Origin: a virus
Reading direction: 5' to 3' (one strand)
DNA: 47,520 nt
IMG/VR virus record: IMGVR_UViG_3300024262_000051
Location: 1 to 47,520 of that record
The position numbers and the translations under genes are program-made. Positions within the stretch are counted from its first letter, which is position 1, and each line of letters begins with the position of its first letter. Shown piece by piece: positions 1 to 14,153 of the stretch. The notes beneath the pieces were generated by a model, which saw nothing but the letters and a program-made list of their open reading frames with translations, was not told the origin of the DNA and made no database searches.

Positions 1-321
1 GGTAATTCAAACAAATATCACGTGTGCCTAAACAAGGGAAACGTTATTGAATTCCGCCTACCTGCCCGATTCCAATCAGTAAAACAAATGATGCGCAGAT
101 ACGAGATGATGTACGAATTGGTTGATTTCAGCGTAAACAATCCCAATGGAAGTTTCAAGACGTTTCTCAATAAAGTAGAACCTATCCTAATGGCGATGTA
201 CGACAGAGACCAAGCCAAGGTGACCGAGATAATGACCTTAGCAGTATCATTCCAAAAGCATATCAACACAGGCAGGGTGACCGAGGATATCCAAGGATGG
301 TTAGCACCAAGGGTATGGTAG
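1..321 (+). CDS. Hypothetical early protein, 5' end cut by the window
   Basis: The frame is open to the left edge, and the only in-frame start in view is a GTG at 22, so the true start probably lies outside the window. At least 99 residues are visible: a charged, helical protein with a Met/Arg-rich stretch (MMRRYEMMYE) and no motif I recognise. It stops at 321, ten bases before a palindrome copy and about 34 bases before a hammerhead ribozyme, so its mRNA would carry both elements just after the stop codon. Function unknown. Confidence 0.7.
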   Translation, partial: GNSNKYHVCLNKGNVIEFRLPARFQSVKQMMRRYEMMYELVDFSVNNPNGSFKTFLNKVEPILMAMYDRDQAKVTEIMTLAVSFQKHINTGRVTEDIQGWLAPRVW

Positions 322-330
322 AAAAGAGGG

Positions 331-350
331 TAGTGTCTTCAAGGACACTA
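331..350 (+). repeat. Dispersed palindrome copy 1 (20-bp form)
   Basis: TAGTGTCTTCAAGGACACTA. As RNA it forms a 7-bp stem (UAGUGUC/GACACUA) that can extend by a U-G pair to a UCAA loop. The same 20-mer occurs reverse-complemented at 14134-14153. It is not followed by a T-run, so it is not a classical terminator here. It sits just upstream of the hammerhead ribozyme. Confidence 0.9.
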
Positions 351-354
351 TCCT

Positions 355-405
355 CCTGTCCACAGGTGAGTGCCTGTGCTGATGAGTCCCAAAGGACGAA
401 ACAGG
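355..405 (+). ncRNA. Type III hammerhead ribozyme
   Basis: All conserved core parts are present in order. Stem III 5' strand is CCUG (355-358), followed by U359 and C360, giving a GUC cleavage site with cutting expected after 360. Stem I is CACAGG (361-366) with CCUGUG (373-378), loop UGAGUG. The core CUGAUGA is at 379-385. Stem II is GUCC (386-389) with GGAC (394-397), loop CAAA. The core GAAA is at 398-401 and stem III 3' strand is CAGG (402-405). The A401-U359 pair plus four further pairs close stem III. The open stem III makes it type III. It lies in the gap between two early genes. Cleavage would leave a 2',3'-cyclic phosphate about 10 nt after the 331-350 hairpin, and a 5'-OH leader of 67 nt before the next start codon. 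Activity is inferred from structure only. Confidence 0.87.
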
Positions 406-427
406 AAACCAAAAAAATCAAATCAAA

Positions 428-622
428 ATGAAAAAAGTAAGCAAAGTTTTAATGGCGTTAATGTTGGCAGTGGTAACATTCAACGCAGGTCGTTTCATCT
501 TGGCGTTATTCCAAGAAGTAAGTTCCGTACCACAATTCATCTCAGGATGTATCGTAATCGGATTCTTGGTGACCCTATTGTATTGTGTAGTAGTTCTAAT
601 GTTCGCAAAGGATGGAAAGTAA
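428..622 (+). CDS. Small membrane protein, two TM helices (holin candidate)
   Basis: A 64-aa protein with two hydrophobic segments, at about residues 7-27 and 37-59, a basic N-terminus (MKKVSK) and a short charged tail (AKDGK). The start is supported by the A-rich leader ATCAAATCAAAATG that precedes many genes in this block. Two helices, small size and a position about 500 bases before a transglycosylase-like gene would fit a holin. There is no family-specific motif, so that role is inference only. Its stop overlaps the next small gene by 11 bases. Confidence 0.7.
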   Translation: MKKVSKVLMALMLAVVTFNAGRFILALFQEVSSVPQFISGCIVIGFLVTLLYCVVVLMFAKDGK

Positions 623-773
623 GCAGTACTACAAAGTAAGATACGCAGGTAAAGATATCTGTAATATCTCTGCACATTCAAAATGGGAAGCCATTGACCG
701 AGTGTTCAACGACAACATCTCAAGGTATCCTTGGATAGTACGTCAGAAATTAACCGCAGTATTAACACGATAA
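612..773 (+). CDS. Hypothetical 53-aa protein
   Basis: A short frame starting at ATG 612 inside the end of the preceding membrane-protein gene, in another frame, and stopping with TAA at 771-773, twelve bases before the next start. The product is basic, with several aromatic residues (QYYKVRYAGKD near the N-terminus, YPWIVRQKL near the C-terminus). It fills what would otherwise be a 160-base gap in a tightly packed region, which is the main support. Function unknown. Confidence 0.6.
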   Translation: MESKQYYKVRYAGKDICNISAHSKWEAIDRVFNDNISRYPWIVRQKLTAVLTR

Positions 774-784
774 ATCAAATCATT

Positions 785-1111
785 ATGTATAAAGTAACAC
801 TACAATTCGAAACCTGTAAACCATCCTACAAAGGAAAGAGTTTATGGACACTAACAAAAGAGTTCAACGACCTTCGCCACTGCGACAATTTTATTGCGCA
901 TATGCACCGAACCAAGGGATATCTCCTTGACGAGTGTTGGTACGATTCAGGATTCCCATTCAATGAGGGAGACACGTACTACACGATAGAAGACAACGAG
1001 GTTGTGATGTCTTGTTGGGATGACATAAGCGAGGAATTATTTGACAAGAACAAACTATACTTTGTCAGTAAGACACAAGCACAGAAGTATATAACACAAA
1101 CAACTATTTAA
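785..1111 (+). CDS. Hypothetical 108-aa protein
   Basis: The start is placed at ATG 785 (MYKVTLQF), after the leader AAATCAAATCATT. A longer version from 731 would overlap the previous gene and adds an unconvincing N-terminus. The protein is acidic and rich in aromatic residues, with a central stretch around DECWYDSGFPFNEGDTYYTI. Near its end it contains FVSKTQ, reminiscent of the VSSKT peptide encoded by the palindrome repeat, but the DNA there is not palindromic. The next gene starts 2 bases after its stop. Function unknown. Confidence 0.75.
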   Translation: MYKVTLQFETCKPSYKGKSLWTLTKEFNDLRHCDNFIAHMHRTKGYLLDECWYDSGFPFNEGDTYYTIEDNEVVMSCWDDISEELFDKNKLYFVSKTQAQKYITQTTI

Positions 1112-1112
1112 G

Positions 1113-1625
1113 ATGAGACAGATTAAAATTTTAGCAGGAGTAGTCACGGTATCCGTGCTTGGGTTTGCATCATACGACAAGCCAACTGCAGATTCAGAAC
1201 AATGTGTTATAGAAGATACAATCTCACCCGAGATTGTGTCCTCAAAGACACAAACCGATTGGGAATTATTTGTTGAAGCAGTAATCCAAGTCGAGAGTAG
1301 CGGGAATGATTCTGCATACAACGAAAAAGAGAAAGCGGTAGGTTGCCTACAGATACGTCCTATTATGGTGCGTGAGGTGAACAGAGTGCTGAGAAGAAAC
1401 GACATTATGTTTCGTTACACAATGGAAGACCGATGGGACAGAGAGATGTCAATCGAGATGTTTGAAATTATGGCGGAGCAGGTTGAGTGTTGCGAGGGAT
1501 TGACTCAGGAAGAATTCTTTGAGGTGGTTGCCCGTAAATGGAATGGCGGAGGAAGAGGTCACAAGAAGCCATCAACTGAAGTGTATTGGGAACGAGTGAA
1601 AAATAAATTTGGTAGTTTAAATTAA
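1113..1625 (+). CDS. Lytic transglycosylase-like lysozyme (SLT type)
   Basis: A 170-aa protein with an N-terminal hydrophobic segment (about residues 5-20) that could be a signal or anchor. A linker follows, then a small transglycosylase-like domain from about residue 48: VIQVESSG with the candidate catalytic Glu, then AYNEKEKAVGCLQI, the usual N-terminal half of the SLT/lysozyme-like fold, and a later KWNGGGRGH segment. Enzymes of this kind cleave the glycan strands of peptidoglycan; here it would act in the periplasm for lysis. The linker at residues 42-46 (VSSKT) is encoded by a palindrome copy. It is small for an SLT domain, and endolysin versus another peptidoglycan role cannot be decided from sequence. 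Confidence 0.8.
   Translation: MRQIKILAGVVTVSVLGFASYDKPTADSEQCVIEDTISPEIVSSKTQTDWELFVEAVIQVESSGNDSAYNEKEKAVGCLQIRPIMVREVNRVLRRNDIMFRYTMEDRWDREMSIEMFEIMAEQVECCEGLTQEEFFEVVARKWNGGGRGHKKPSTEVYWERVKNKFGSLN
1236..1251 (+). repeat. Dispersed palindrome copy 2 (one-base variant)
   Basis: GTGTCCTCAAAGACAC, one substitution from the main form, with outer arms extended to TTGTGTC/GACACAA. It is read in frame as V-S-S-K-T, in the linker between the N-terminal hydrophobic segment and the catalytic domain of the transglycosylase-like protein. Confidence 0.85.
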
Positions 1626-1639
1626 TTAAACTATCTTTG
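1608..1639 (+). promoter_or_regulatory. Bacteroidetes-type promoter
   Basis: TTTG at 1608-1611, a 20-base gap, then TATCTTTG at 1632-1639, matching the Bacteroidetes -33 TTTG / -7 TAnnTTTG consensus. The start codon of the amidotransferase fusion gene lies 29 bases downstream, and the -33 box overlaps the end of the preceding gene. Confidence 0.72.
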
Positions 1640-1667
1640 TACAATAATTAAACAAAATCTAATCATT

Positions 1668-2747
1668 ATGTGTGTAATCATTATCAAACAACGAGGTCGC
1701 AAGGTATCGCAAGAAGTCCTAAAGAAATCATCAACTGTCAATCCTGATGGGTTGGGCATTGTTTGGTTGGACACCTTTGAGGTAACCTATCACGACTCTA
1801 AAGAGTACAAGAAACTATTAACTGACCGACCATACATTGCGCATTTCAGATACGCAACTGTCGGCAAGATTAACCGAGCGAACACACATCCATTTGTGTG
1901 CGGTAAGAACACAGACGAACTGCTGATGATGAACGGAACCATCAAAGGGTTGGGCAACGACAACAAGACAGATAGCAAGGTACTTGCTGAGATGTTAGGT
2001 GATATGCCAAGAGACCAATGGAAAACTGAACTTGAGAAGTATGAGTGCAGGTTTGTCAGCATCAACACCAAGACAAAATCGTATCAGGTATACAATCGTC
2101 ACCTGTACACCAACAGAGATGGCGTGTGGTTCTCAAAAGACAACGTCCTACTTGACAACGTGGTTGCAGTGTACGGAACATTAAAGAAAGGTTATAGCAA
2201 CTACTACGGTCACCTTTACAACTCTAACTTTGTTGGCTCAGGCAAGACCAAGGATAAGTATCCTCTAATCATTAAGGGGTTGCCTTTCTTGGTAAATCAA
2301 AAGGGAGTGGGACACAACGTGGCGGTAGACGTATTCAAAGTAAGTGACTCTACCTTAGCGAAGTTAGATATCCTTGAGGGTCATCCGAGGTGGTACAAGC
2401 GTGAACAGATTCAGGTAGTCATACAGGGTAAAGAAGTTACTGCGTGGACATACTTTAACCCAAAACAAATTGGAAGTGGGGAGGTAATGCACAAGACATT
2501 TCTTCAGAAGCCCATTCCAAAATCTTTTACACTATCCAAGTCCAAGACAGTGTCTTCAAAGACACAAAAAGAATGCACACAACTTTCTTATTTCGATGAG
2601 GTCTTTGATGAAAGGGAAGAGGTTTATGTAGAGAAGCCATCCTGCATTGATTGTTTCTCTGACTTGGAGTACGATGGGTTTAACCATTACCATTGTAGTG
2701 CTTGTGGTGGGTGGTTCACAGATAACGAAGTAGCACTATTTAATTAA
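1668..2747 (+). CDS. Class II glutamine amidotransferase / gamma-glutamylcyclotransferase fusion with C-terminal zinc ribbon
   Basis: A 359-aa three-part protein. Residues 1-160 look like a class II (Ntn-type) glutamine amidotransferase: it starts MC, so Cys2 would be the nucleophile after Met removal, followed by NPDGLGIVW, AHFRYATVG and MMNGTI, as in YafJ-type enzymes. Residues about 165-265 look like a gamma-glutamylcyclotransferase / AIG2-like domain, with the YGTLKKG signature, a conserved LDILEGHP acidic position and a closing AWTYF strand. After a Ser/Lys-rich linker, residues about 325-347 form a CxxC...CxxC zinc ribbon. The linker carries a palindrome copy read as VSSKT. It is preceded by its own promoter. 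Both domains act on glutamine or gamma-glutamyl groups, so modification or removal of such groups is a reasonable idea; the substrate is unknown. Confidence 0.8.
   Translation: MCVIIIKQRGRKVSQEVLKKSSTVNPDGLGIVWLDTFEVTYHDSKEYKKLLTDRPYIAHFRYATVGKINRANTHPFVCGKNTDELLMMNGTIKGLGNDNKTDSKVLAEMLGDMPRDQWKTELEKYECRFVSINTKTKSYQVYNRHLYTNRDGVWFSKDNVLLDNVVAVYGTLKKGYSNYYGHLYNSNFVGSGKTKDKYPLIIKGLPFLVNQKGVGHNVAVDVFKVSDSTLAKLDILEGHPRWYKREQIQVVIQGKEVTAWTYFNPKQIGSGEVMHKTFLQKPIPKSFTLSKSKTVSSKTQKECTQLSYFDEVFDEREEVYVEKPSCIDCFSDLEYDGFNHYHCSACGGWFTDNEVALFN
2548..2573 (+). repeat. Dispersed palindrome copy 3 with shared flanks
   Basis: The exact 16-mer GTGTCTTCAAAGACAC lies at 2550-2565. Together with CA before and AAAAAGAA after, this 26-base block is identical to 6966-6991. 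It is read as T-V-S-S-K-T-Q-K-E in the linker between the cyclotransferase and zinc-ribbon parts of its host gene. Confidence 0.92.
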
Positions 2748-2764
2748 CTTAAAATCAAAACAAA

Positions 2765-3061
2765 ATGAAAAAAATCACAAGAGATTCGGTTGATGCATTT
2801 ATGAATGCAAGACCTTTCCGCAAAGACAACACAGAGGTGACGGTATTAGACAACGTTACCATTTTAAAACTATTCGGTAACGAAATTGCCTACCGATACA
2901 ATGACCCTGAGAGAACTTTGTCCATCACCAATGCAGGGTGGTTCAGTAACACAACAAAAGAAAGGTTGAATGGAATTCCTAACGTGCGAATACATCAAAA
3001 GAATTTCAATTGGTATCTGAACGACAAAGAATGGGACGGAAGATTAATAGACGTAATATAA
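2765..3061 (+). CDS. Conserved phage protein of unknown function (GWFSNTTKERLN type)
   Basis: A 98-aa protein with the signature GWFSNTTKERLN followed by a WYLN..EWDG C-terminus. I recognise this pattern from small proteins found widely in phages and plasmids, with no assigned function. The start is fixed by the leader AAAATCAAAACAAAATG. It lies in a run of small early genes between the amidotransferase fusion and the replication genes. Confidence 0.8.
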   Translation: MKKITRDSVDAFMNARPFRKDNTEVTVLDNVTILKLFGNEIAYRYNDPERTLSITNAGWFSNTTKERLNGIPNVRIHQKNFNWYLNDKEWDGRLIDVI

Positions 3062-3085
3062 ACTAACAATTTAAACCAAAACAAA

Positions 3086-3367
3086 ATGAAAAAAGCAATT
3101 GTAACAACACGTGCAGTATACCACAAGACGGTATCAATTGAAGTAAGCGTTCCCTTAGAGGTGGAAGACGACAACGTAAGAGATTGGTTATTTGACAACG
3201 AGCATTTATTTATTGATGAACTTGATGACAAACTATCTAATGCCAAACTTGAATATGGATTCGGTGTCACGACAGACAACGGTATGGTTTGGAAAGAAGA
3301 AGAATCAGAAACCCGTTACGATGTCGTAGACCCTGATGGAAAGTTTACGTGGGGAGGACATTTATAA
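3086..3367 (+). CDS. Hypothetical acidic protein
   Basis: A 93-aa acidic protein. The N-terminal half is strand-rich (VSIEVSVPLEVEDD), followed by a DWLFDNEHLFIDELDDKL helix and a short GKFTWGGHL tail. It begins after the standard A-rich leader (AAACCAAAACAAAATG). No family recognised. Confidence 0.72.
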   Translation: MKKAIVTTRAVYHKTVSIEVSVPLEVEDDNVRDWLFDNEHLFIDELDDKLSNAKLEYGFGVTTDNGMVWKEEESETRYDVVDPDGKFTWGGHL

Positions 3368-3398
3368 AATTAATCACAATGAAAAAATCAAAACAATT

Positions 3399-3692
3399 AT
3401 GGACAACAGACTTATCATTACCAAACCTGACAATTTCGTATTCGTTGATATCACAGACCAAGCAGAACTCCTCTTCAACAACACGAACCTTGAACTATTT
3501 GCTTGGGACGGAATCGCAGAAGAACTTATGGACACTGTCTACCACATTCGCAGAGCAATCGAGCGAGGAGCAAGAATCGTTATCGAAGGAGGGAACATTC
3601 CCGCCAAGCGAGAAGTGAAGTGGACATCAGTAGACAAGGTGCTAATTAATGGACATTGGTACGGAAAATACGCAGATATCTTGCGTGGTTAA
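3399..3692 (+). CDS. Hypothetical 97-aa protein
   Basis: The start is chosen at ATG 3399 (MDNRLIIT), which sits after ATCAAAACAATT, the usual leader form. A start at 3336 would overlap the previous gene by 32 bases. A competing frame starting at 3379 gives a Ser/Thr-rich product unlike a folded protein and is not preferred. The chosen product mixes hydrophobic strands with helices (AWDGIAEELMDTVYHIRRAI). Function unknown. The putative promoter for the next gene overlaps its last codons. Confidence 0.7.
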   Translation: MDNRLIITKPDNFVFVDITDQAELLFNNTNLELFAWDGIAEELMDTVYHIRRAIERGARIVIEGGNIPAKREVKWTSVDKVLINGHWYGKYADILRG

Positions 3693-3711
3693 AATATTAA
3701 TACTATATTTG
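3680..3711 (+). promoter_or_regulatory. Bacteroidetes-type promoter
   Basis: CTTG at 3680-3683 (one mismatch to TTTG), a 20-base gap, then a full TATATTTG at 3704-3711. The DUF3846-like gene starts 33 bases downstream. It has the same geometry as the 1608-1639 promoter. Confidence 0.6.
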
Positions 3712-3743
3712 AACATAAGTTATACCAAATAAAATCAAATCAA

Positions 3744-3986
3744 ATGGCAACACTATTAAAATCAAACGGTAAGCGAGTAGAAGATGTGGACATCTCAACT
3801 CTTAAAGAAATGCAAGAACTCGTAGGCGGTTACATTGAAATCGTATACCTGCCCGAGGGAAAGTGTTTAATTATTAATGAAGAGGGGAACCTTTTCGGAC
3901 TCCCACTAAATCAACAAGCAACTGAACTGTATGGACATCCAATCGTGGGGGAAGTCATTTACGCACAGAGCAGTGAAATAAATTAA
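3744..3986 (+). CDS. DUF3846-like protein
   Basis: An 80-aa protein with the pattern of DUF3846: a VGGYIEIVYLP segment, then CLIINEEGNLFGLPLNQQAT and a closing IVGEVIY strand. This small domain is found in phage and plasmid proteins and has no established function. Preceded by a promoter-like element and the leader AAAATCAAATCAA. Confidence 0.72.
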   Translation: MATLLKSNGKRVEDVDISTLKEMQELVGGYIEIVYLPEGKCLIINEEGNLFGLPLNQQATELYGHPIVGEVIYAQSSEIN

Positions 3987-3992
3987 TTAAAG

Positions 3993-4346
3993 ATGAAACA
4001 TTTATTCAGACAACTTATCCTTGAGGAGAAACTCAAGGACGCACCGAACCTGAAGGTCATTCAGCAGATGCAACAGAAGGTAGATTCAGAACTTTCTATC
4101 AAAGACCTAACAGAAACAGGAATGATTATGACACGAGAGTCTTTCGAGAAATCGTATCGCAATCCACCTGCGTTAGACACCAAGTGCAAAGATGTGATGA
4201 CTTACATTGGCAAGAACTACATTCAAATGTTGAGTAACGGATTTTATTTATGGGACTATCCATCAACTAAACCGAAACGCTCAAAGAAGTTAGAGGTTGT
4301 AGAGGAAGCATTGTTCAATCACCTAATGGGAATCAATGTCAAGTAG
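3993..4346 (+). CDS. Hypothetical 117-aa protein
   Basis: A basic, mostly helical protein starting 6 bases after the previous stop. It has an N-terminal helical region rich in Gln and Lys and a Pro/Lys-rich segment (STKPKRSKK) near the end. Its 3' end overlaps the start of the Nmad1-like gene by 11 bases, suggesting co-translation. No family recognised. Confidence 0.72.
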   Translation: MKHLFRQLILEEKLKDAPNLKVIQQMQQKVDSELSIKDLTETGMIMTRESFEKSYRNPPALDTKCKDVMTYIGKNYIQMLSNGFYLWDYPSTKPKRSKKLEVVEEALFNHLMGINVK

Positions 4347-4608
4347 CAAGGAGCAGATAAAAGATGTGACAGGGAGAGTATACCGTATGCTTGCAGAAAA
4401 GAATGAGGCATACGGGAACTCAGCCCTTGAACCAATCAACATATTCTCCAAGGGGGATGCGGTTGAATCTTTACAAGCAAGGATAGACGACAAGTTAGCC
4501 CGAATAAAAAACAGAGGGGTGAATGACGAAACCGAAGACACTTTGTTTGACCTGTGCGGGTACTTAATTCTTTTAATTATTGCTAAAGAAAATTTGCACG
4601 AGAAATAA
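4336..4608 (+). CDS. Nmad1 / DUF1599-like protein
   Basis: A 90-aa helical protein with the family pattern: KNEAYGNSALEP near residue 22, then DAVESLQARIDDKLARIKN, and an acidic DETEDTLFDLCGYLILL helix. DUF1599 is also called nucleotide modification associated domain 1, a MazG-like helical fold found with nucleotide and base-modification genes in phages. Whether this phage modifies its DNA cannot be told, as no modification enzyme is recognised beside it. Confidence 0.75.
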   Translation: MSSSKEQIKDVTGRVYRMLAEKNEAYGNSALEPINIFSKGDAVESLQARIDDKLARIKNRGVNDETEDTLFDLCGYLILLIIAKENLHEK

Positions 4609-4624
4609 ACTATAATTATATTTA
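4593..4624 (+). promoter_or_regulatory. Bacteroidetes-type promoter
   Basis: TTTG at 4593-4596, a 20-base gap, then TATATTTA at 4617-4624 (one mismatch in the -7 box). The next start codon is at 4647. It overlaps the end of the preceding gene and repeats the geometry of the other two promoters. Confidence 0.55.
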
Positions 4625-4646
4625 CACATTATTAAAATCAAATCAT

Positions 4647-4865
4647 ATGTCAAAATCAAAACAGATGTTCACCGAAATGCGTGAGCAAGAAATCCAAGAC
4701 GAATTCCTTGATGATGAGTATCGCTTCAGGGAATTTCAATCAAGAGAGCGAGTGTCTTCAAAGACACCAATCGCAAACAACTCTTCAGTAGATATTTTAA
4801 AAGAACTGTTCGGGTACTTTGGAGAAATCTTTAAAGACTACGAAGCAAAAAATCAAATCAAATGA
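4647..4865 (+). CDS. Hypothetical 72-aa protein
   Basis: A highly charged protein. The N-terminal half is acidic and helical (EMREQEIQDEFLDDEYRF), residues 36-40 read VSSKT and are encoded by a palindrome copy, and the C-terminal half contains a hydrophobic helix (VDILKELFGYFGEIF). The palindrome falls at the join of the two halves. The stop overlaps the next ATG by 4 bases (ATGA). Function unknown. Confidence 0.7.
   Translation: MSKSKQMFTEMREQEIQDEFLDDEYRFREFQSRERVSSKTPIANNSSVDILKELFGYFGEIFKDYEAKNQIK
4752..4767 (+). repeat. Dispersed palindrome copy 4
   Basis: An exact GTGTCTTCAAAGACAC, read in frame as V-S-S-K-T between two helical halves of a small early protein. Confidence 0.92.
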
Positions 4866-5164
4866 AACAGAATATTTTCAATGAATATGCAACTCAATGT
4901 GCTGACCTATTCAGCATCAGCGAGGAACTCCTTTTCACTAAGAGCAAACGCAGAGATATTGTAGACGCACGTTACCTGCTATACTATATGTGTAGTGAAC
5001 GACCAATGCGTATCGTTTATATCCAAGAGTATATGTTCAGCAAAGGATACCTAATCAATCACTCATCTATTATCTACGGAATCAATCAGGTGAAGGAGCG
5101 ATTAGAAGGAGACGGAGACTACAGAAAAATAATTAAACAACTGAAGTCGTGCGTTACAGTTTAA
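4862..5164 (+). CDS. DnaA domain IV-like DNA-binding protein (first of two)
   Basis: A 100-aa protein resembling only the C-terminal DNA-binding domain of DnaA: a DLFSISEELLFTKSKRR start (the basic loop), VDARYLLYYM, then a helix-turn-helix region ending in NHSSIIYGINQVKERL, equivalent to the DnaA signature helix. There is no AAA+ ATPase part. Such stand-alone domains in phages are taken to bind the phage origin or promoters. It is translationally coupled to the previous gene (ATGA overlap) and overlaps the next by 16 bases. Confidence 0.75.
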   Translation: MKQNIFNEYATQCADLFSISEELLFTKSKRRDIVDARYLLYYMCSERPMRIVYIQEYMFSKGYLINHSSIIYGINQVKERLEGDGDYRKIIKQLKSCVTV

Positions 5165-5598
5165 AAGACATCTTTATTCAGGCATCTGATGACCCATCTT
5201 CATCTCCTCTTCACGGGAATGGATACGAGTCCTATCTTTTGTACGGGATAAAGATTGTCAAAGACAACGCAACTGAACAAATACAACTGTTGAATACTGC
5301 TAAGTCAGGAGATTTTTATCACTCTCTAAATCAGGAAGATATAAATTTATTTCACGATGGCGGTTGGAGATATGGAATATATGTTATATCTTTGTCTAAC
5401 TATCGTGCAAAACTCGATAGAATTGAGCAACAGATTAAGAAGTACGTAAACGAGAAGCCGACCTCATCTCAGAAGCAACTCGACTATTATCAATCATCAA
5501 GGCAAAACATCCTTGAGAAGTATACCGAGATGACAACTAAATTAAATCAATTAAAATCAAATCAAAATGAAAAATCAACAAGAGCAAACGACATTTGA
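5149..5598 (+). CDS. Hypothetical protein with C-terminal coiled coil
   Basis: A 149-aa protein from a GTG start that overlaps the preceding DnaA-like gene. A mixed N-terminal part contains YLLYGIKIV and FHDGGWRYGIYV. From about residue 85 there is a long helical, Gln/Lys-rich region (LDRIEQQIKKYVN, then YTEMTTKLNQLKSNQ) likely to form a coiled coil. The last 32 bases overlap the annealing-protein gene. Function unknown. Confidence 0.68.
   Translation: MRYSLKDIFIQASDDPSSSPLHGNGYESYLLYGIKIVKDNATEQIQLLNTAKSGDFYHSLNQEDINLFHDGGWRYGIYVISLSNYRAKLDRIEQQIKKYVNEKPTSSQKQLDYYQSSRQNILEKYTEMTTKLNQLKSNQNEKSTRANDI
5363..5394 (+). promoter_or_regulatory. Possible internal promoter for the recombination genes
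   Basis: GTTG at 5363-5366, a 20-base gap, then a full TATCTTTG at 5387-5394. It lies inside the preceding gene, 173 bases before the annealing-protein start. The -7 box is perfect and the -33 box has one mismatch. Confidence 0.4.
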
Positions 5599-6220
5599 AA
5601 AATTGTCAGCCATCAATGTCAATGACAAGGTGGAAAAGAAATCAAATCTAACGTACCTATCTTGGGCGTGGGCTTGGTCAGAAACAAAGAAGGTGTGTCC
5701 TGATGCGACATATCAAATCGGAATGACAGAGTATGACGAGCAACTTGGCTTTATGTGTCACACATCTGTAACTATTGGCGGAGAGACTTTAGAGATGTGG
5801 TTGCCTGTTATGGACGGAGCCAACAAGTCAATGCGTAAGGAATCATACGACTATGCAACTCGCTACGGAACTAAGACTTGTGAAGCAGCAACAACTTTCG
5901 ACATCAACAAAACATTGATGCGTTGTTTGGTTAAGAACTTGGCTATGTTCGGATTGGGAATCTACATCTATGCAGGTGAAGACTTGCCTGAATCAGAAAC
6001 TGTAACACCAACTCCCGCACCATCGACTCCCGCACAAACTCAAACGGCAGACGGAAAACTTTCGTTAAAGGTTGGTGATGAGAATTGGGATAAGGTTGTT
6101 AAGTACGTGACTGAGAACAAAGAGATGGGCATCAAGAAGATTGTCGATGCATTGTCTATCAAGTACACCATCACCAACTTGGTTAAGAATAATCTAACTA
6201 AAATCGTAACAGGAAAATGA
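5567..6220 (+). CDS. Single-strand annealing protein, DUF1071 / Sak3-like
   Basis: A 217-aa protein with the DUF1071 pattern: LSAINVNDKVEKK followed by LTYLSWAWAWSETKK near the start, an EMWLPVMDGANKSM segment, and the conserved NKTLMRCLVKNLAMFGLGIYIYAGEDLP block. A Thr/Pro/Ala linker (about residues 145-160) leads to a small helical C-terminal domain. These are phage recombinases that anneal complementary single strands during replication and repair. It is followed with a 4-base overlap by a PD-(D/E)XK exonuclease, the usual two-gene recombination module, and an SSB-like gene comes next. Confidence 0.8.
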   Translation: MKNQQEQTTFEKLSAINVNDKVEKKSNLTYLSWAWAWSETKKVCPDATYQIGMTEYDEQLGFMCHTSVTIGGETLEMWLPVMDGANKSMRKESYDYATRYGTKTCEAATTFDINKTLMRCLVKNLAMFGLGIYIYAGEDLPESETVTPTPAPSTPAQTQTADGKLSLKVGDENWDKVVKYVTENKEMGIKKIVDALSIKYTITNLVKNNLTKIVTGK

Positions 6221-6951
6221 ACAAAGAAACATTAGACCGCTTACGTAATGACGAGGATTATTACGGAGCATTTGGAAAACAATTCCTTAGCAACTCAGAC
6301 ATCGGAGCGTTACTTGGTAACCCAAAAGAATTTGGAAAGTCTTCTGAGGACAACGTGAACTATGCCAAGGGTAGATACTTTCACCAACTCATCCTTGAAC
6401 CTGAGAAGGCAGTGCATACAAAGTTTGTTGATGTGTCAACTCGAACTACTAAAGCATACAAGGAATACATCGAACAGAATAAGATTCCCTTTGCAATGTT
6501 AGAGAAGGAGGGCGAAGAGATTCGTGGGTGCGTGGACAATATGATTCAGAACCTTGCTTTCTTTGAAGGCATACGTGAGGAGGGTAATCAGTATGAGGTT
6601 CCTGCAGTCAAGGAGATTCACGGTATGATGTGGAAGGGTAAGGCAGACATCGTTTGCAAGGACAAACTCATTGACCTGAAAACAACAAGTAACATTTCTG
6701 ATTTTAAGTGGTCGGCTCGAAAGTATAATTATGACAGTCAGTGCTACATATATCAGGAACTGTTTGGACTTCCTCTAACATTCTACGTGGTGGACAAGAC
6801 CAACGGTATGCTTGGCATCTACAGACCAACAGAAGAATTTGTAAAGCGTGGTGAGGAAAAAGTAATCCGTGCCATTGATGTTTATAGAAAATTCTTTGGA
6901 GACAATCCGACTGAAAACATCGAGTACTATTACATAGATGAACTTCTTTAA
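6217..6951 (+). CDS. PD-(D/E)XK exonuclease (RecE/DUF3799-like)
   Basis: A 244-aa nuclease. Motif: D144 in WKGKADIV, then D153 and K155 in LIDLKTT, followed by a helix with YDSQCYIYQ, the Q-x-x-x-Y type motif of this family. An upstream GRYFHQLILEP segment carries the usual helical His. Enzymes of this group resect double-stranded ends and hand the single strand to the annealing protein encoded just before it. Its stop overlaps the start of a small ORF by 14 bases. Confidence 0.85.
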   Translation: MNKETLDRLRNDEDYYGAFGKQFLSNSDIGALLGNPKEFGKSSEDNVNYAKGRYFHQLILEPEKAVHTKFVDVSTRTTKAYKEYIEQNKIPFAMLEKEGEEIRGCVDNMIQNLAFFEGIREEGNQYEVPAVKEIHGMMWKGKADIVCKDKLIDLKTTSNISDFKWSARKYNYDSQCYIYQELFGLPLTFYVVDKTNGMLGIYRPTEEFVKRGEEKVIRAIDVYRKFFGDNPTENIEYYYIDELL

Positions 6952-7108
6952 AAGATTAACAGAAGCAGTGTCTTCAAAGACACAAAAAGAAAATGGGTGG
7001 ATGTGTCTGCGTGTTCCAATCAGATGCCAAAGCCCCGAGGAAAAACAAAATGTTATCCTCTCAACAACTAAACTATTGGAGCGTAAAATTAAAATCAAAA
7101 CAAAATGA
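6938..7108 (+). CDS. Small 56-aa protein carrying the palindrome-encoded peptide
   Basis: A frame from ATG 6938 (MNFFKRLTEA) to TGA 7106-7108, overlapping the exonuclease stop upstream and the next ATG downstream (ATGA). Residues 11-15 are VSSKT, encoded by a palindrome copy. The rest is basic with two Cys. It explains an otherwise empty 153-base gap, and its boundaries couple neatly to both neighbours. The composition is not strongly protein-like, so this could also be untranslated spacer. No family recognised. Confidence 0.5.
   Translation: MNFFKRLTEAVSSKTQKENGWMCLRVPIRCQSPEEKQNVILSTTKLLERKIKIKTK
6966..6991 (+). repeat. Dispersed palindrome copy 5 with shared flanks
   Basis: An exact 16-mer at 6968-6983. 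The surrounding 26 bases are identical to 2548-2573, longer than the palindrome itself, which suggests these two copies are related by recent copying. It is read as VSSKT in the small ORF here. Confidence 0.92.
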
Positions 7109-7389
7109 CAGACGAAAAAATTTTCGCAGACGGATTCTCTTTTAAGCGAAGAGAGAATGCACCCGACTTCGTAGTGGGTCGGCAATCAATTAAAGTGGAT
7201 GAAGCAATTGCTTTCCTTTCACAACACGCCAAGAATGGTTGGGTTAACTTGGATATCAAACAAGCCAAGAACGGGAACTACTATTGTGAACTCGATACTT
7301 GGGAAGCCAAGCCACAAGGAAACTCAGCGTCACCTAAACCTGCTCCTGCTCCTGTGGTAGCGAAAGCGGATGATGACCTGCCGTTTTAA
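7105..7389 (+). CDS. SSB-like single-stranded DNA-binding protein
   Basis: A 94-aa protein with a strand-rich body (about residues 1-68), a Pro/Ala/Ser-rich linker, and an acidic tip DDDLPF at the extreme C-terminus. That tip is the SSB-type interaction tail that recruits replication and repair proteins. The body does not show a canonical OB-fold motif I can point to, so SSB function is inferred from the tail, the size and the position beside the annealing protein and exonuclease. It is followed by a strong terminator. Confidence 0.7.
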   Translation: MTDEKIFADGFSFKRRENAPDFVVGRQSIKVDEAIAFLSQHAKNGWVNLDIKQAKNGNYYCELDTWEAKPQGNSASPKPAPAPVVAKADDDLPF

Positions 7390-7411
7390 CCTAAACCAAT
7401 TAGAAATAGTT

Positions 7412-7433
7412 AAGGGGAGGAGACTCCCCTTTT
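7412..7433 (+). terminator. Intrinsic terminator after the recombination genes
   Basis: Stem AAGGGGAG (7412-7419) with CTCCCCTT (7424-7431), loop GAGA, followed by a short T-run that starts inside the stem (TTTTC). It lies 23 bases after the SSB-like stop and ends the first half of the early block. Confidence 0.85.
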
Positions 7434-7440
7434 CTATCTC

Positions 7441-7604
7441 TAATAGTGTGCTGAATGCGAAAAATAAAAGCACCACTACTACTACTATAGATATATATAA
7501 TTACTTTTATTTCTTATATATGTATAATAAAATTAACATTTTCAACACTGAGTCTGATAATCAAGCAGTTAGAGTAATCAAATCAACATCAAATCAACAT
7601 ATCA
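7441..7604 (+). other. AT-rich gap with a CTA/ACT microsatellite; origin candidate
   Basis: No gene is seen between the terminator and the primase-helicase. The gap holds an (ACT)n run near 7475-7486, then very AT-rich DNA with an inverted repeat ATATATAA (7493-7500) / TTATATAT (7514-7521), and just before the gene a direct repeat AAATCAACAT (7580-7589, 7591-7600). Easily melted DNA directly upstream of a primase-helicase is a reasonable place for a replication origin, but no clear DnaA boxes are visible. A promoter for the next gene is expected here too; I do not see a good TAnnTTTG box. Confidence 0.4.
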
Positions 7605-10016
7605 ATGACACACACTGTAACAATATTCAAAAACATCAAGGAAACTGAGGCTCCGTTCCATAGAGATGTACAACTTGTCCTTAAAAGAATCAAGGATGGA
7701 GCGACAAAGGACTTAGTTAAGCGTATCCGACAAGAGAAAGTAAAGTCGGAGCGTAACGAACTAAAGAAACTTCTACCCGCTATTTGTTTTAGCGGAGTAT
7801 TTCACAAGCGTAATGACAATGCCCTACAGAATCACAGTGGATTGATTTGTTTGGACTTTGATGGTTACACCAAGACAAAAGAACTTCTTCAGGATAAAGA
7901 GAACCTATGCAAAGACAAGTACGTGATGAGCGTATTCATCTCTCCATCAGGTGATGGTCTCAAGGTGTTGGTTAAAATACCTGCTGATGTAGATAATCAC
8001 GTGAACTACTTCAACTCTTTACAGGAACACTTCAACTCTCCCAACTTTGACAAGGTAGTTAAGAACGTATCTCGTGTATGCTATGAGTCTTATGACCCTT
8101 TGACATACATCAATATGAACTCCTCAGTATGGGATAAGATTGTTGAACCTGAGTACGTAGAGGTTAATAAGCATAGAGATGCACCAACTATTCCAATCAC
8201 AGATGAGAACAAAGTCGTTGACATCCTTATCAAGTGGTGGTTAAAGAAATATCCAATGGTTGAAGGTCAGCGTAATCAGAACGTGTATGTTCTTGCGATG
8301 GCATTCAATGACTATGGTATCAGTAAGAGTCTTGCAGGTTATGTGCTAAGCCAATATCAAACTGCGGACTTCACCTTAACTGAAATCAACAGAACGATAG
8401 ACTCAGCGTATTCTCAGACAAGAAACTTCGGCACTAAGTACTACGAGGATGAGGAGCGTATCAATCAAATCAGAACTAAACTCAAGAGGGGTGTATCAAA
8501 AAAGGAAATCCGTCATCAGTTAGAAGAGTCTCGTATTGATGGCGATGTAATTGATTCAGTACTAAACAGAATTGAAGATGAGGCAACCAACCATACCTTT
8601 TGGACAAAGAATGAAAAGGGAACTATCAAGATAGTACACTACTTGTTCAAAGAATTCCTTGAGGACAATGGGTTCTACAAGTTTTGCCCTGAAGGGAGCA
8701 GAAACTATGTGTTCGTTAAGGTCACTAACAACTTGATAGACCACACATCAGAGAAGGAGATTAAGGATTTTATATTGGGATATCTACAGAACATAGATGA
8801 CCTAAGTATATACAACTACTTCGCTGACCAAACAAGATTCTTTAGAGAGGAATTTTTAACCCTGCTATCTACGATTGATATTTACTTCATCGAAGATTCC
8901 AAGGATACTTCTTACCTGTACTACAAGAACTGTGCGGTCAAGATAACGGAGAACAATATAGAACCTATCGACTACTTAGATTTAGGCGGTTACGTTTGGA
9001 AGGAACACGTGATTGATAGAAAGTTTAACCTGTGCGATGATGACTTGTGCGACTACAAAATTTTCATCGCTCGCATATGTGCAGACAATGAGTCACGTGT
9101 GCGGACAATGGAGTCTACAATTGGATTCTTAATGCACGGATACAAGAACCTATCATACTGCCCTGCGGTAATACTTAATGATGAGGTTATAAGTGACAAC
9201 CCTGAAGGTGGTACGGGAAAGGGATTATTTATGAATGCCCTGAACCAAATGAAAAAGTTAGTGGTGATTGACGGTAAGGCATTTGCTTTTGAGAAATCAT
9301 TTCCTTACCAACTTGTATCAGCAGATACGCAGGTGCTTTGCTTTGATGATGTCAAGAAGCACTTTGACTTCGAGCGTTTATTCTCTGTGGTTACAGAGGG
9401 TCTTACGTTGGAGAAGAAGAATAAAGATGCTATCAAGATTCCATTTGCTAAGTCACCTAAGATTGCTATCACTACCAACTATGCTATCAAGGGAAGCGGT
9501 AACTCTTTCGCAAGACGTAAGTGGGAGGTTGAACTTCATCAGCACTACAATAAGAACTATACACCGTTAGATGAATTTGGCAAACACTTCTTTGCGGATT
9601 GGGATGATGATGAGTGGTGTCAGTTTGATAACTATATGGTGTCGTGTCTTCAGATGTACCTAAGCCAAGGGCTAATCAAGTCTTCATTTGTAAACTTAGG
9701 AGTGAGACAACTATCTGCAGAAACATCACACGATTTTATCGAATGGTGTGGATTGATTGGAGATATGCGTGAGAACCCAAGTCTTGAGATAGGAATTAAG
9801 ATTCACCAACAAGACAGGTACTATGAATTTATTGCAGAGTATCCTGACTATGCACCAAAGTCACGTATGAGCATCAGCCGTATGAGATTCTATCAGTGGT
9901 TGGTTGCTTACGCAGTATACAAAACTCAGCAACAACCTGAAGAGGGAAGAGATGCAGCAGGAAAGTGGATGCGTATTAAACCAAAATTAAATCAACAACA
10001 AAATCTAAATCTTTAA
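7605..10016 (+). CDS. Primase-helicase: BT4734/VirE N-terminal domain with SF3-type helicase
   Basis: An 803-aa replication protein. The N-terminus (about residues 1-170) matches the BT4734-like/VirE N-terminal domain, a primase-polymerase relative: HSGLICLDFDG with its acidic pair and FISPSGDGLKVLVKIP. A middle helical region contains KKEIRHQLEES. The C-terminal half is a phage SF3-like helicase: Walker A GGTGKG (about residue 535), Walker B VLCFDDV (about 579), and the motif C-like KIAITTNY ending in Asn (about 620), followed by FARRKWEVEL. It would prime and unwind the phage genome. It is the largest replication gene in the window, in its own unit after a terminator, with a helix-turn-helix gene 6 bases downstream. 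Confidence 0.85.
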   Translation: MTHTVTIFKNIKETEAPFHRDVQLVLKRIKDGATKDLVKRIRQEKVKSERNELKKLLPAICFSGVFHKRNDNALQNHSGLICLDFDGYTKTKELLQDKENLCKDKYVMSVFISPSGDGLKVLVKIPADVDNHVNYFNSLQEHFNSPNFDKVVKNVSRVCYESYDPLTYINMNSSVWDKIVEPEYVEVNKHRDAPTIPITDENKVVDILIKWWLKKYPMVEGQRNQNVYVLAMAFNDYGISKSLAGYVLSQYQTADFTLTEINRTIDSAYSQTRNFGTKYYEDEERINQIRTKLKRGVSKKEIRHQLEESRIDGDVIDSVLNRIEDEATNHTFWTKNEKGTIKIVHYLFKEFLEDNGFYKFCPEGSRNYVFVKVTNNLIDHTSEKEIKDFILGYLQNIDDLSIYNYFADQTRFFREEFLTLLSTIDIYFIEDSKDTSYLYYKNCAVKITENNIEPIDYLDLGGYVWKEHVIDRKFNLCDDDLCDYKIFIARICADNESRVRTMESTIGFLMHGYKNLSYCPAVILNDEVISDNPEGGTGKGLFMNALNQMKKLVVIDGKAFAFEKSFPYQLVSADTQVLCFDDVKKHFDFERLFSVVTEGLTLEKKNKDAIKIPFAKSPKIAITTNYAIKGSGNSFARRKWEVELHQHYNKNYTPLDEFGKHFFADWDDDEWCQFDNYMVSCLQMYLSQGLIKSSFVNLGVRQLSAETSHDFIEWCGLIGDMRENPSLEIGIKIHQQDRYYEFIAEYPDYAPKSRMSISRMRFYQWLVAYAVYKTQQQPEEGRDAAGKWMRIKPKLNQQQNLNL

Positions 10017-10022
10017 TATCAA

Positions 10023-10418
10023 ATGAAAGTAAAAGTTAAAAATTGGCTCGAGCAACTCAACAACGGAGAAATAAAGAGCAAGACTACAAGAATCATCTAT
10101 GAGATTCACAAGCACACCTTTAAAGGAAAAGGTTTCACAACCATTGATGAGTTAAGAAAAGACCTTAGTATGGCTCACCAAACGCTTACGGCTATTGTAT
10201 CGAACATTCAAGACGAAGGATTGATTGCAACATACGGAGAAATTCAAAATGAATCAGGCGGCATTTTTCAACACATTCGATATGCAGGACACGAAGAGCG
10301 AGAATATTTAATCAGAGAAAGACGCAGAGAAAAACTTTCACAATGGATTAAAAGAGGCAGAGAAGAGTTTAACGACCTTTTACCCTACTCAATGATACAA
10401 GAACTTAATAACCTTTAA
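10023..10418 (+). CDS. Winged-helix-like DNA-binding protein
   Basis: A 131-aa protein. Residues 15-90 have the shape of a MarR/replication-type winged helix: helical KTTRIIYEIHKH, FTTIDELRKDLSMAHQTLTAIVSNIQDEG as the helix-turn-helix, and GLIATYGEI as the wing. The tail is strongly basic and Arg-rich (REYLIRERRREKL). It probably binds DNA as a replication accessory or regulator. It is one candidate for binding the dispersed palindrome; that is speculation. It starts after ATATCAAATG. Confidence 0.6.
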   Translation: MKVKVKNWLEQLNNGEIKSKTTRIIYEIHKHTFKGKGFTTIDELRKDLSMAHQTLTAIVSNIQDEGLIATYGEIQNESGGIFQHIRYAGHEEREYLIRERRREKLSQWIKRGREEFNDLLPYSMIQELNNL

Positions 10419-10429
10419 ATCAGAATAAG

Positions 10430-10657
10430 ATGAAAGTAACAATAGAGTTCGACAACGAGCAAGACGCAATCCAAGCATTGAACGCAGGGGCTTGGTATAA
10501 TGTAGCGTGGAGCCTTGACCAAGGGTTGCGAGGAATAGTAAAATACGGATGCATCGGAAACCGAGAGGCTACCGAATGTGAGATGGAAGTCTATGAGAAA
10601 TGCCGAGAGATGTTACGAGAAGCAATGAGCGAAAATGACTTGACATTCAACCTATGA
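10430..10657 (+). CDS. Hypothetical 75-aa acidic protein
   Basis: A small protein starting MKVTIEFDNEQDAIQAL, with a central AWSLDQGLRGIVKYG helix and an acidic helical end. It resembles small phage proteins of unknown role located beside replication genes. It overlaps the next small gene by 4 bases (ATGA type). Confidence 0.68.
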   Translation: MKVTIEFDNEQDAIQALNAGAWYNVAWSLDQGLRGIVKYGCIGNREATECEMEVYEKCREMLREAMSENDLTFNL

Positions 10658-10791
10658 GAGAACAATTTATGAGGATTGCTATGGCAAGGTTGCGTAGCAC
10701 CTACCCGTTCAAACCACAACGCAGAGCAATTGCTGCCAAGATGTGGATTAGATTCATTAACAAAAAAGAAATTGATGAATGGAAAACGTAG
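10654..10791 (+). CDS. Small basic 45-aa protein
   Basis: From ATG 10654 to TAG 10789-10791. It is strongly basic (MARLRSTYPFKPQRRAIAAKMW) with two aromatic-rich patches. It overlaps the previous stop by 4 bases and the helicase start by 13, so the spacing fits coupled translation. It fills the only gap between these genes. Function unknown. Confidence 0.6.
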   Translation: MREQFMRIAMARLRSTYPFKPQRRAIAAKMWIRFINKKEIDEWKT

Positions 10792-12236
10792 ACATATTAT
10801 CGAGAATCCCGGGGTACAGTAACAAGATGATGCACAAGCAGTGTATGATATTGGCATCAGTAGTTAACGCAAAGAAGGAAATTAAAGTCGGTAGAGGAAA
10901 GAGTGTAAAAATAGTAGAGGAGTATAAGCACAATACTCCAAAGGAAACAATAGACCGAATCAATCGAAGCGTTGATTATTATAAATATCAAATGGAAAAT
11001 CCGACAATAGAGTATAGAGATTATCAAAAAGAAATCATAGAGAAAGGCATTGATGTTCTAAAGAAGAAGAACTTTCTGTACTTAGCAATGGAGGTGCGTA
11101 CAGGGAAGACCCTCACAAGTCTCGGCATATGCAGAGAACTCGATGCAAAAAAGGTTTTGTTCTTAACAAAGAAGAAAGCAATAAGCAGCATAGAGTCCGA
11201 CTATAGTATGCTGAATCCTAACTACGAACTAACAGTAGTCAACTATGAAAGTTTGCACAAGGTTGAGATAGAAAGTCTTGATGTTTTAATTTGCGATGAG
11301 GCACACGGTATGGGTGCATTCCCTAAACCAAACAACAGAGCGAAGCAAGTCAGTGCAATCATAAAGAAGCACAATCCAATGGTAATTCTTTTATCAGGTA
11401 CACCAACTCCCGAGTCGTACTCTCAGATGTACCATCAGGTTTACGGTATACGCACCAATCCATTCAATCAATATGTAAACTTTTATAAGTTTTCTAAACA
11501 CTTCGTTAATGTTACGCAAAGAAAAATCAATTCTCTATACATAAACGATTACACGAATGGTCTTCCAACGATACTTGATGCAATGAAACCATACACTATA
11601 AACTATACGCAGAAGGAAGCAGGTTTTAAGGTGGACACAAGGGAACATATCCTTGAGGTAGAGATGTCTGATATAACATATAAGTTATGTTCGCAATTAA
11701 AAAAGAACTTGGTGGTCGAGGGTAAGAACGAAACCATATTGGCTGACACCCCCGTTAAACTAATGATGAAACTTCACCAATTGTATTCAGGAACTATCAA
11801 GTTTGAGTCAGGCAACTCAACCATTATTGACTTGTCGAAAGCAAGATATATCCACGACAACTTTGGCGATGCTAAGATTGGAATTTTTTACAAATTCAAA
11901 GAAGAGTACAACGCACTGAAGCAGGTGTACGGGGACCAACTGTGTACGGAACTTAGTGTCTTTGAAGACACAAGTAAGTCTATAGCCTTACAAATTGTAT
12001 CAGGACGTGAGGGTATATCCTTACGAAAAGCAGATGCTCTTGTGTATTACAACATAGACTTCAGTGCTACAAGTTATTGGCAGAGCAGAGACCGAATGAC
12101 AACCAAGGAAAGATTGGAGTCAGATGTTTATTGGGTGTTTGCTAAAGGGGGTATAGAAAAAGAAATATATAAAGCGGTATCAGACAAGAAAGACTATACT
12201 CTGAATCACTTTAAAAAGGATTTGCTAACTTTGTAA
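10779..12236 (+). CDS. SF2 DEAH-type (SNF2-like) helicase
   Basis: A 485-aa helicase. Motif I is MEVRTGKT (about residue 104), motif II is DEAH (173-176), motif III is SGTPTP (about 206), motif V is SGREGISL and motif VI is QSRDRM (about 435). A Q-motif-like YRDYQKEII lies near residue 80. This is the compact phage type of SNF2-family ATPase, which usually travels with a VRR-NUC nuclease; here that nuclease starts directly at the next base. Likely role: remodelling of branched DNA during replication or repair. Residues 393-398 (VFEDTS region), between motifs III and V, are encoded by a palindrome copy in reverse orientation. Confidence 0.85.
   Translation: MENVDILSRIPGYSNKMMHKQCMILASVVNAKKEIKVGRGKSVKIVEEYKHNTPKETIDRINRSVDYYKYQMENPTIEYRDYQKEIIEKGIDVLKKKNFLYLAMEVRTGKTLTSLGICRELDAKKVLFLTKKKAISSIESDYSMLNPNYELTVVNYESLHKVEIESLDVLICDEAHGMGAFPKPNNRAKQVSAIIKKHNPMVILLSGTPTPESYSQMYHQVYGIRTNPFNQYVNFYKFSKHFVNVTQRKINSLYINDYTNGLPTILDAMKPYTINYTQKEAGFKVDTREHILEVEMSDITYKLCSQLKKNLVVEGKNETILADTPVKLMMKLHQLYSGTIKFESGNSTIIDLSKARYIHDNFGDAKIGIFYKFKEEYNALKQVYGDQLCTELSVFEDTSKSIALQIVSGREGISLRKADALVYYNIDFSATSYWQSRDRMTTKERLESDVYWVFAKGGIEKEIYKAVSDKKDYTLNHFKKDLLTL
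11956..11971 (-). repeat. Dispersed palindrome copy 6, inverted, inside the helicase gene
   Basis: GTGTCTTTGAAGACAC on the + strand, the exact complement of the main form. It is read as S-V-F-E-D-T in the helicase, a different peptide from the forward copies. This shows the element is conserved as DNA and not only as a peptide. Confidence 0.92.
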
Positions 12237-12482
12237 ATGGCTACAGAACAACAGATACAGACTAAAAGGATAAAGGAACTTGAGGCTCAGGGTTACTATG
12301 TAATCAAACTAATCAAGACCAATAAGAATGGTATCCCTGATATCATTGCTATCCCGCCAAACGCTAATGTAATCTTCAGCGAAGTGAAGACGCTGAAGGG
12401 AAAGGTCTCTCCATTACAGGAGTATAGACTAAAAGAATTAGAACAATATGGATTCAAAACAGAGGTATACAGAGGAGAGTAG
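12237..12482 (+). CDS. VRR-NUC domain nuclease
   Basis: An 81-aa minimal VRR-NUC protein of the PD-(D/E)XK group. Active-site set: D35 in GIPDIIAI, E49 and K51 in SEVKTLKGKVSPLQ, with Q61 completing the pattern. It starts directly after the helicase stop with no gap. The VRR-NUC/SNF2 pair is common in phages and is thought to cut flap or branched DNA opened by the helicase. The small size is normal for phage members. Confidence 0.85.
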   Translation: MATEQQIQTKRIKELEAQGYYVIKLIKTNKNGIPDIIAIPPNANVIFSEVKTLKGKVSPLQEYRLKELEQYGFKTEVYRGE

Positions 12483-12816
12483 TAATGTAGGTATTTCGCT
12501 AACACAAGACTTTCATTTCACCCTTCACACATTTGATTGGGATATACGTGTGGACATAATGAAGCAACTCTCAAGCGTGTTGGAATGGATGACAGTATCA
12601 TTGGATGGTGAGACTTATTATGTTGGCGGAGTGTCTCTTGTTAAGGAACCTTTCTTCTTTGTTATTGAATACTATAACGACCCGTTAACCGCATACACAG
12701 ATACTCCTATGATAGACTTAGTGGACATCTTAGAGATAGACTGCGACCAATACTTAGACTTAATAAACGAATCAAATACAATCAAACAATATGGAAATAG
12801 ACGCAACAGTATTTAA
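12448..12816 (+). CDS. Hypothetical 122-aa acidic protein
   Basis: The start at ATG 12448 overlaps the nuclease gene by 35 bases; no better start lies downstream. The acidic product has strand-rich segments (FHFTLHTFDWDIRV, then FFFVIEYY) and an Asp-rich helix near the end. No family recognised. Its 3' end overlaps the next gene by 26 bases. Confidence 0.65.
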   Translation: MDSKQRYTEESSNVGISLTQDFHFTLHTFDWDIRVDIMKQLSSVLEWMTVSLDGETYYVGGVSLVKEPFFFVIEYYNDPLTAYTDTPMIDLVDILEIDCDQYLDLINESNTIKQYGNRRNSI

Positions 12817-13550: not shown

Positions 13551-13553
13551 CCA

Positions 13554-14136: not shown

Positions 14137-14153
14137 TGTCCTTGAAGACACTA
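14134..14153. terminator. Palindrome copy 7 at the convergent junction; shared stops and likely terminator
   Basis: TAGTGTCCTTGAAGACACTA, the reverse complement of 331-350. Its first TAG is the stop of the + strand gene, and its last three bases (CTA) are the TAG stop of the facing - strand gene. As + strand RNA it forms a 7-bp stem followed by UCUUUUUCU, so it can terminate the early operon. On the - strand no T-run follows, so termination there is less sure. Confidence 0.75.

Follow-up and report, generated by a model that had tools for sequence, protein, structure and literature searches.

A type III hammerhead ribozyme with an abutting hairpin at gene ends in a clade of uncultured phages

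Phages carry hammerhead ribozymes, and in 2011 it was proposed that these cut long phage transcripts into gene-size mRNAs (PMC3088659). In HF1/HF2, 13 nt separate a hammerhead from the following start codon, a 5' end has been mapped close to the cut, and successive cleavage and ligation were raised as a further possibility; matches mispaired at positions 10.1/11.1 were rejected in that census, and its text mentions neither terminators nor any hairpin beside the ribozyme (PMC3088659). In a 2017 review, the role of hammerheads in phages and bacteria is regarded as unsettled (PMC6155905). Theta (HDV-like) ribozymes of gut phages apparently infecting Bacteroidota and Bacillota have also been proposed to act in RNA processing (PMC10879173). 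Here we describe a hammerhead from an uncultured phage and its relatives, together with a hairpin that adjoins it.

The hammerhead and its phage

The window, i.e., the whole stretch of DNA analysed here, is a virus record of 47,520 bases and represents a fragment of a phage genome. Its plus-strand block (1-14136) contains the replication genes, up to about 14.1 kb, including a primase-helicase with BT4734-like and DUF5906 domains (7605-10016) and a helicase (10779-12236), and the portal, the terminase, and one virion structural protein are encoded on the minus strand; from this arrangement, the genes around the hammerhead are presumably early. Primase relatives in IMG/VR number 394 and many of the contigs fetched are 50-64 kb long, the phage being a member of a large uncultured clade with genomes of about 60 kb. 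Among named records, the closest is MW202828, from an uncultured podovirus-like member of the clade, and no hammerhead was found in it. The terminase shares about 46% identity with that of Elemovirus (Flavobacterium phages) and about 38-39% with those of Callevirus and Baltivirus (Cellulophaga phages), which suggests that the host is likely a member of the Bacteroidota.

The sequence-only reading had claimed a complete type III hammerhead at 355-405 (+), and this is borne out by RF00008, the clade model R1 (see below), covariation, the fold, and direct reading. The canonical element, with all of its parts in the correct order, extends over 353-407 (+), where the full RF00008 (Hammerhead_3) model is matched at 47.1 bits; the E-value is 2.4e-7 for 4227 families and 47.5 kb, and 2e-9 when the local stretch was searched. 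The bit score is 1.4 bits under the Rfam gathering score of 48.5, which is a rule for database inclusion and not a structural definition of the hammerhead, and a default Rfam scan therefore returns nothing for this element. The lack of any match to hammerhead models had been named beforehand as a refutation; what was obtained is a match with the above E-value, yet below the Rfam cut-off. Model R1 scores the window hammerhead, which belongs to its training set, at 74.5 bits, and a search of all 47,520 bases with R1 gave no second hammerhead.

The core boxes CUGANGA and GAAA occur at 379-385 and 398-401, and three stems join at the core, stem III being open-ended, as indicated by the fold, the model alignment, and covariation in 57 sequences. 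Stem III pairs TCCTGT (UCCUGU; 354-359, model alignment and fold) with ACAGGA (401-406, which follows the GAA of the core box at 398-400; direct reading and fold). The cleavage triplet GUC, of the NUH type, is read directly at 358-360, and cleavage is expected between C360 and C361. Stem I is formed by CACAGGTG (361-368) and TGCCTGTG (371-378), from direct reading and the fold, and the loop in this region (361-378), of the UGAGUG type, is nearly invariant among relatives. It is followed by the core box CTGATGA (CUGAUGA; 379-385, direct reading) and by stem II (386-397), in which GTCC (386-389) pairs with GGAC (394-397) around a CAAA loop, according to the fold and covariation. Both loop I (UGNGUR type) and loop II (NAAA) are strongly conserved in the clade. 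The boxes, stems, and GUC site thus stand in the order that had been read from the letters. The isolated 53-nt segment 354-406 folds exactly as a hammerhead (-19.6 kcal/mol, z=-2.9), and none of 200 shuffles is as stable.

The hammerhead is intergenic and in the same sense as its flanking plus-strand genes, between a TAG at 319-321 and an ATG at 428, so the earlier placement outside any coding frame holds; the sole overlapping plus-strand ORF (370-639, GTG start) uses a different frame from the gene at 428 and is not credible as a gene. Upstream lies the 3' end of a gene of an amidoligase-like family, family 0 (1-321, +; the 5' part is beyond the window), whose C-terminus is orthologous in 24 hammerhead loci; for a full-length relative, the PHROG match to amidoligase is no more than weak (E=0.026). 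Downstream, an A-rich leader without obvious Shine-Dalgarno sequence (407-427, +) precedes a gene for a small membrane protein of 64 aa (428-622, +), which resembles small membrane proteins of relatives and has no Pfam or PHROG match. Similar leaders precede other genes of the window, at 2751, 3073, 4847, and 5553. No other RNA family exceeded its threshold in the window; weak sub-threshold matches on the minus strand, to a lysine riboswitch, a CRISPR repeat, and others, are taken as chance. A DNA search for the element in a phage collection gave nothing useful.

Hammerheads and their variants across the clade

RF00008 gave 48 matches in 29 of 49 clade records, none of them above the Rfam cut-off, and a single match in a further related set passes it, with 48.7 bits; the default threshold misses nearly all hammerheads of this clade. 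Model R1, built from 57 clade hammerheads, gave 57 strong matches in 32 of 50 clade records (1-4 each, all at least 49.8 bits), many of which, the window included, are in its training set, and no strong match in the remaining 18. The clade sets overlap, with several loci per record, and the relatives are not independent; P values given here ignore kinship, and gene calls in the relatives are simple ORFs.

A structural search of 1.45 Mb of reversed clade sequence gave no match. Sites picked by the core boxes at fixed geometry, ignoring pairing, fall nearly all into two groups, those with complete or nearly complete pairing and UH ahead of stem I, and those with hardly any pairing. In the alignment of the 57 hammerheads, 95.9% of the stem cells are paired, against a mean of 69.4% after shuffling. 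Covariation in the stems scores 0.761, compared to 0.237 after shuffling and no more than 0.133 with slid structures; from this alignment, we regard the covariation of the stems as overwhelming. A chance match or a dead relic could be suspected from the score 1.4 bits below the Rfam gathering threshold and from the repeated gain or loss of the trait described below, but the E-value, the intact core, the covariation, and the empty reversed sequence make this explanation negligible in our estimate; chance origin is rejected on the RF00008 E-value, the fold, the reversed sequence, the core-box sites, and the covariation.

On a primase tree, the hammerhead label needs 12 changes, at least 9 of which are forced by well-supported branches, so the hammerhead was often gained or lost. 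No hammerhead was found in the examined locus of L130, the closest neighbour of the window on this tree. In the phage arrays of the 2011 type, several hammerheads flank genes or blocks of genes; the window, a fragment, has one hammerhead, and relatives have 1-4. In the 92.7-kb record IMGVR_UViG_3300041956_000313 (L063), we observe six RF00008 matches, mostly weak, four of them within about 2.5 kb. The finding of up to four hammerheads in one region, together with the cleavage and ligation raised in 2011 (PMC3088659), would be consistent with a ribozyme that frees RNA pieces for ligation into circles or for joining, rather than for mRNA processing. Against this, the window has a single hammerhead and single copies are common in relatives, and we consider this explanation extremely improbable.

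The window hammerhead is canonical at positions 10.1/11.1. Among the 57 aligned hammerheads, G10.1-C11.1 is replaced by U.U in 12 and by A.A in 4, e.g., in L133:2916-2966, L148:3195-3245, L157:3789-3839, L157:6556-6606, L180:4887-4937, L176:5019-5069, L194:4975-5025, and L204:4997-5047; of these, L157:3789-3839 is a U.U form and L176:5019-5069 an A.A form. The residue at the cleavage position is A in 11 of the 12 U.U forms vs 5 of the 45 others (Fisher p=2.6e-7, ignoring kinship). This variant class is outside the rules of the 2011 census. A separate hammerhead, L156:2539-2589, has U for A at core position 9 (CTGATGT) with all of its stems intact, and is possibly inactive.

Cultured relatives were also searched. 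The Elemovirus phages MT497072 and MT497017, which infect Flavobacterium, carry a full type III hammerhead (18097-18153 and 19083-19139, respectively, both on the minus strand) that is absent from the deposited annotation. A weak match (24.6 bits) occurs in phi19:3, and none was found in phi38:1, phi13:2, phi18:3, Calle_2, Gundel_1, or Panino.

The abutting hairpin and the dispersed 16-mer

Adjoining stem III, we observe a GC-rich 13-bp hairpin (326-355, +) that the sequence-only reading had left out; it was identified from the fold and a hairpin scan and recurs in relatives. It lies 4 nt behind the TAG at 319-321 and is followed by CTGTCCAC, without an immediate U-tract; the first two bases of the 5' strand of stem III can pair in this hairpin instead. 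The hairpin played no part in finding the hammerhead relatives. With a criterion of at least 7 net base pairs, an abutting hairpin is present beside 36 of 47 hammerheads (46 found with Rfam in relatives, plus that of the window), compared to 4.2% of random positions, and the median energy of the 45 nt upstream is -18.7 kcal/mol vs -4.6 at random positions and -5.4 in gaps without hammerhead. A set obtained independently by a DNA-pattern search, which favours GUCC stems, agrees with this: among the matches listed, the hairpin occurs in 22 of 25 (control 9.4%) where the locus has proteins in common with the window and, at loci without such similarity, in 9 of 20 by the strict criterion (control 9.8%) or 16 of 20 by energy (control 20.6%). 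A minority of hammerheads is without hairpin, e.g., in L148 and L151, and the hairpin is imperfect in L194.

The summed Vienna energy of hairpin and hammerhead is -36.6 to -36.8 kcal/mol, tertiary contacts not being counted. The best Vienna fold of 315-440 (-41.3 kcal/mol) pairs the stem III bases otherwise, which counts against a unit of hairpin and hammerhead, as does the minority of hammerheads lacking the hairpin.

The 3' end of the hairpin is typically 4-6 nt ahead of the cut, and the hairpin therefore directly adjoins the stem III of 4-6 bp. Such an arrangement is what would be expected if the hairpin were a folding aid, stacked on the short stem III and keeping upstream RNA away from the ribozyme, with no role at the mRNA end. 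However, hairpins of this type, some with a U-tract and some without, also stand at certain gene ends that have no hammerhead, and we judge a folding aid alone to be improbable; a folding role and an mRNA-end role do not exclude each other.

The core of the hairpin (333-348) is a 16-mer, GTGTCTTCAAGGACAC. The window contains about ten copies of the near-palindromic GTGTCTTYRAAGACAC or of close variants, within and between genes (333, 1236, 2550, 4752, 6968, 11956, 14136, 27068, 35942, and 43057), and 273 copies are found in 1.45 Mb of clade loci vs none in one Markov-shuffled control. At least three copies are present in 28 of 30 loci with hammerhead vs 7 of 45 loci without. This scattering through the window and the clade, genes included, and the co-occurrence with hammerheads by locus would be accounted for if the hairpin were a mere copy of a dispersed site of 16 bp, such as an operator acting at the DNA level, that stands beside hammerheads by chance. 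Nevertheless, copies beside hammerheads differ from the others: flanking bases add a median of 5 further pairs to them, compared to 0 elsewhere, and in one set their loop is only CA (21) or TA (7) in the transcript sense, whereas intragenic copies show both orientations (CA 54, TG 45); one hammerhead-linked TG copy lies outside that set (G019, 50235). Moreover, abutting hairpins of unrelated sequence occur at several hammerheads, e.g., in L172, L181, L187, and L196, and chance placement is thus very improbable in our view. The data fit a scattered DNA-level site, possibly regulatory, which was incorporated into an RNA hairpin where it adjoins a hammerhead. Since the 16-bp core is dispersed through the genomes, genes included, we rejected the hairpin as a hammerhead-specific marker, only its extension and loop orientation being special at hammerheads.

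At 14130-14165 of the window, a copy of the hairpin is followed by the T-rich TATCTTTTTCT at the junction of convergent gene blocks, and looks like the terminator of the plus-strand block.

Gene ends, proposed function, and known systems

The gene upstream of the clade hammerheads usually belongs to family 0 or to family 1, the latter encoding a protein with amidotransferase-like and gamma-glutamylcyclotransferase domains (1668-2747 in the window). By clustering, family 0 precedes 24 hammerheads and family 1 precedes 14; counted by gene ends, a hammerhead follows 25 of the 32 ends of family 0 and 14 of the 40 of family 1. At these 39 hammerhead-bearing ends, the hairpin is never followed by a U-tract. 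Among the ends without hammerhead, a hairpin with U-tract is present in L143 (by eye), L183, L131, L132, L148, and L151, and others show a hairpin alone. Behind some family 1 genes, where others have the hammerhead, we observe acceptor/T-arm-like pieces with the canonical GGTTCGANTCC (L186 behind 5384, L195 behind 4985, L198 behind 3098, L177 behind 5951, and L169 behind 6108). These pieces are not called as tRNAs by ARAGORN or Rfam, and we rejected a tRNA gene at this place; they are possibly RNase P substrates. Terminator-like or tRNA-like elements thus occupy these gene ends in some relatives that have no ribozyme there. Many ends without hammerhead, including the family 1 end of the window itself, show nothing recognisable in its place, and the exchange with terminators is therefore suggestive only.

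The hammerhead could instead serve mainly the downstream genes, its cut trimming the leader and leaving a 5'-OH and the stem I hairpin that would stabilise the mRNA or tune translation, the upstream hairpin being incidental or a leaky terminator. The start codon is about 63-75 nt after the cut in most relatives, and the HF1/HF2 arrangement cited above points in the same direction. So does Elemovirus, whose hammerhead is found a short distance ahead of the ATG of a leftward gene at the junction of divergent gene blocks, with no gene just upstream on its strand; no abutting hairpin is evident there, and this hammerhead may therefore serve another use. However, the upstream gene is the constant neighbour in the clade and the downstream genes are more varied, and the hairpin adjoining stem III would be left unexplained. 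A link to the downstream gene appears less supported by these comparisons, and we consider such a role unlikely, although less so than the other alternatives.

We find it fairly probable that this canonical type III hammerhead is half of a two-part intercistronic RNA-processing element, which would cut a continuing transcript behind a protective hairpin. RNA polymerase would read through from the amidoligase-like upstream gene into the downstream genes, the hairpin (326-355) folding first in the nascent RNA and the hammerhead second. The hammerhead would then cut itself after C360, so that the upstream mRNA would keep a hairpin about 5 nt from its 2',3'-cyclic-phosphate end, similar to the hairpin-capped end made by an intrinsic terminator, and the downstream mRNA would begin with a 5'-OH and the stem I hairpin. 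All results given here come from sequence analysis, which shows the ribozyme structure and how it is conserved, the adjoining hairpin and how often it recurs, the association with the 3' ends of two genes, and, in some relatives lacking the ribozyme, terminator-like or tRNA-like elements at those ends. Self-cleavage, both as such and in infected cells, and a protective effect of the hairpin on the new end are our inferences. In our reading, hairpin and hammerhead do the job of hairpin and U-tract, yet the polymerase continues, which suggests a way to clean, protected phage message ends without halting transcription.

More tentatively, and with somewhat less confidence than doubt, we hypothesize that hairpin and hammerhead form a recurrent mRNA-punctuation module of Bacteroidota phages, whose place at fixed gene ends would be taken in the course of evolution by intrinsic terminators or tRNA-like processing signals, and vice versa, and which would make hairpin-capped 3' ends without stopping transcription, and that the U.U variants (nearly always with a GUA site) or A.A variants, of the kind filtered from the earlier census, are active, perhaps at other rates. 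As the element is repeatedly present or absent at orthologous ends, with terminator-like or tRNA-like elements instead in some, the ribozyme-made, hairpin-capped 3' end is testable; as the cultured Elemovirus phages carry a hammerhead, so is self-cleavage in infected cells. A literature search covering few subscription journals gave no account of an abutting hairpin or of an exchange with terminators, which is weak evidence of novelty, and nothing relevant on prophage hammerheads with terminators, on the 16-mer, or on Elemovirus phages.

Compared to RF00008, the element shares the core boxes, the GUC site, three stems with stem III open, and loops on stems I and II, but differs in its score just below the cut-off, its short 4-bp stem II with NAAA-type loop, its abutting hairpin, and the U.U or A.A found at 10.1/11.1 in relatives. 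Similar to the phage and prophage hammerheads of Perreault et al. 2011 (PMC3088659), it is intergenic and can be present several times per phage in some genomes, whereas here its association is with the 3' ends of two gene families within a single clade. An intrinsic (Rho-independent) terminator also has a strong hairpin soon after the stop codon, and the same hairpin type with a U-tract occurs at some orthologous ends, but here the hairpin is followed by a ribozyme and not by a U-tract. Theta ribozymes are likewise small ribozymes with a proposed function in RNA processing in phages, although they have a different fold and a postulated role in processing tRNA 3' trailers (PMC10879173). As far as could be checked, the ribozyme adds a new member to a known family, and the compound element, together with the 10.1/11.1 variants, is a new variant.
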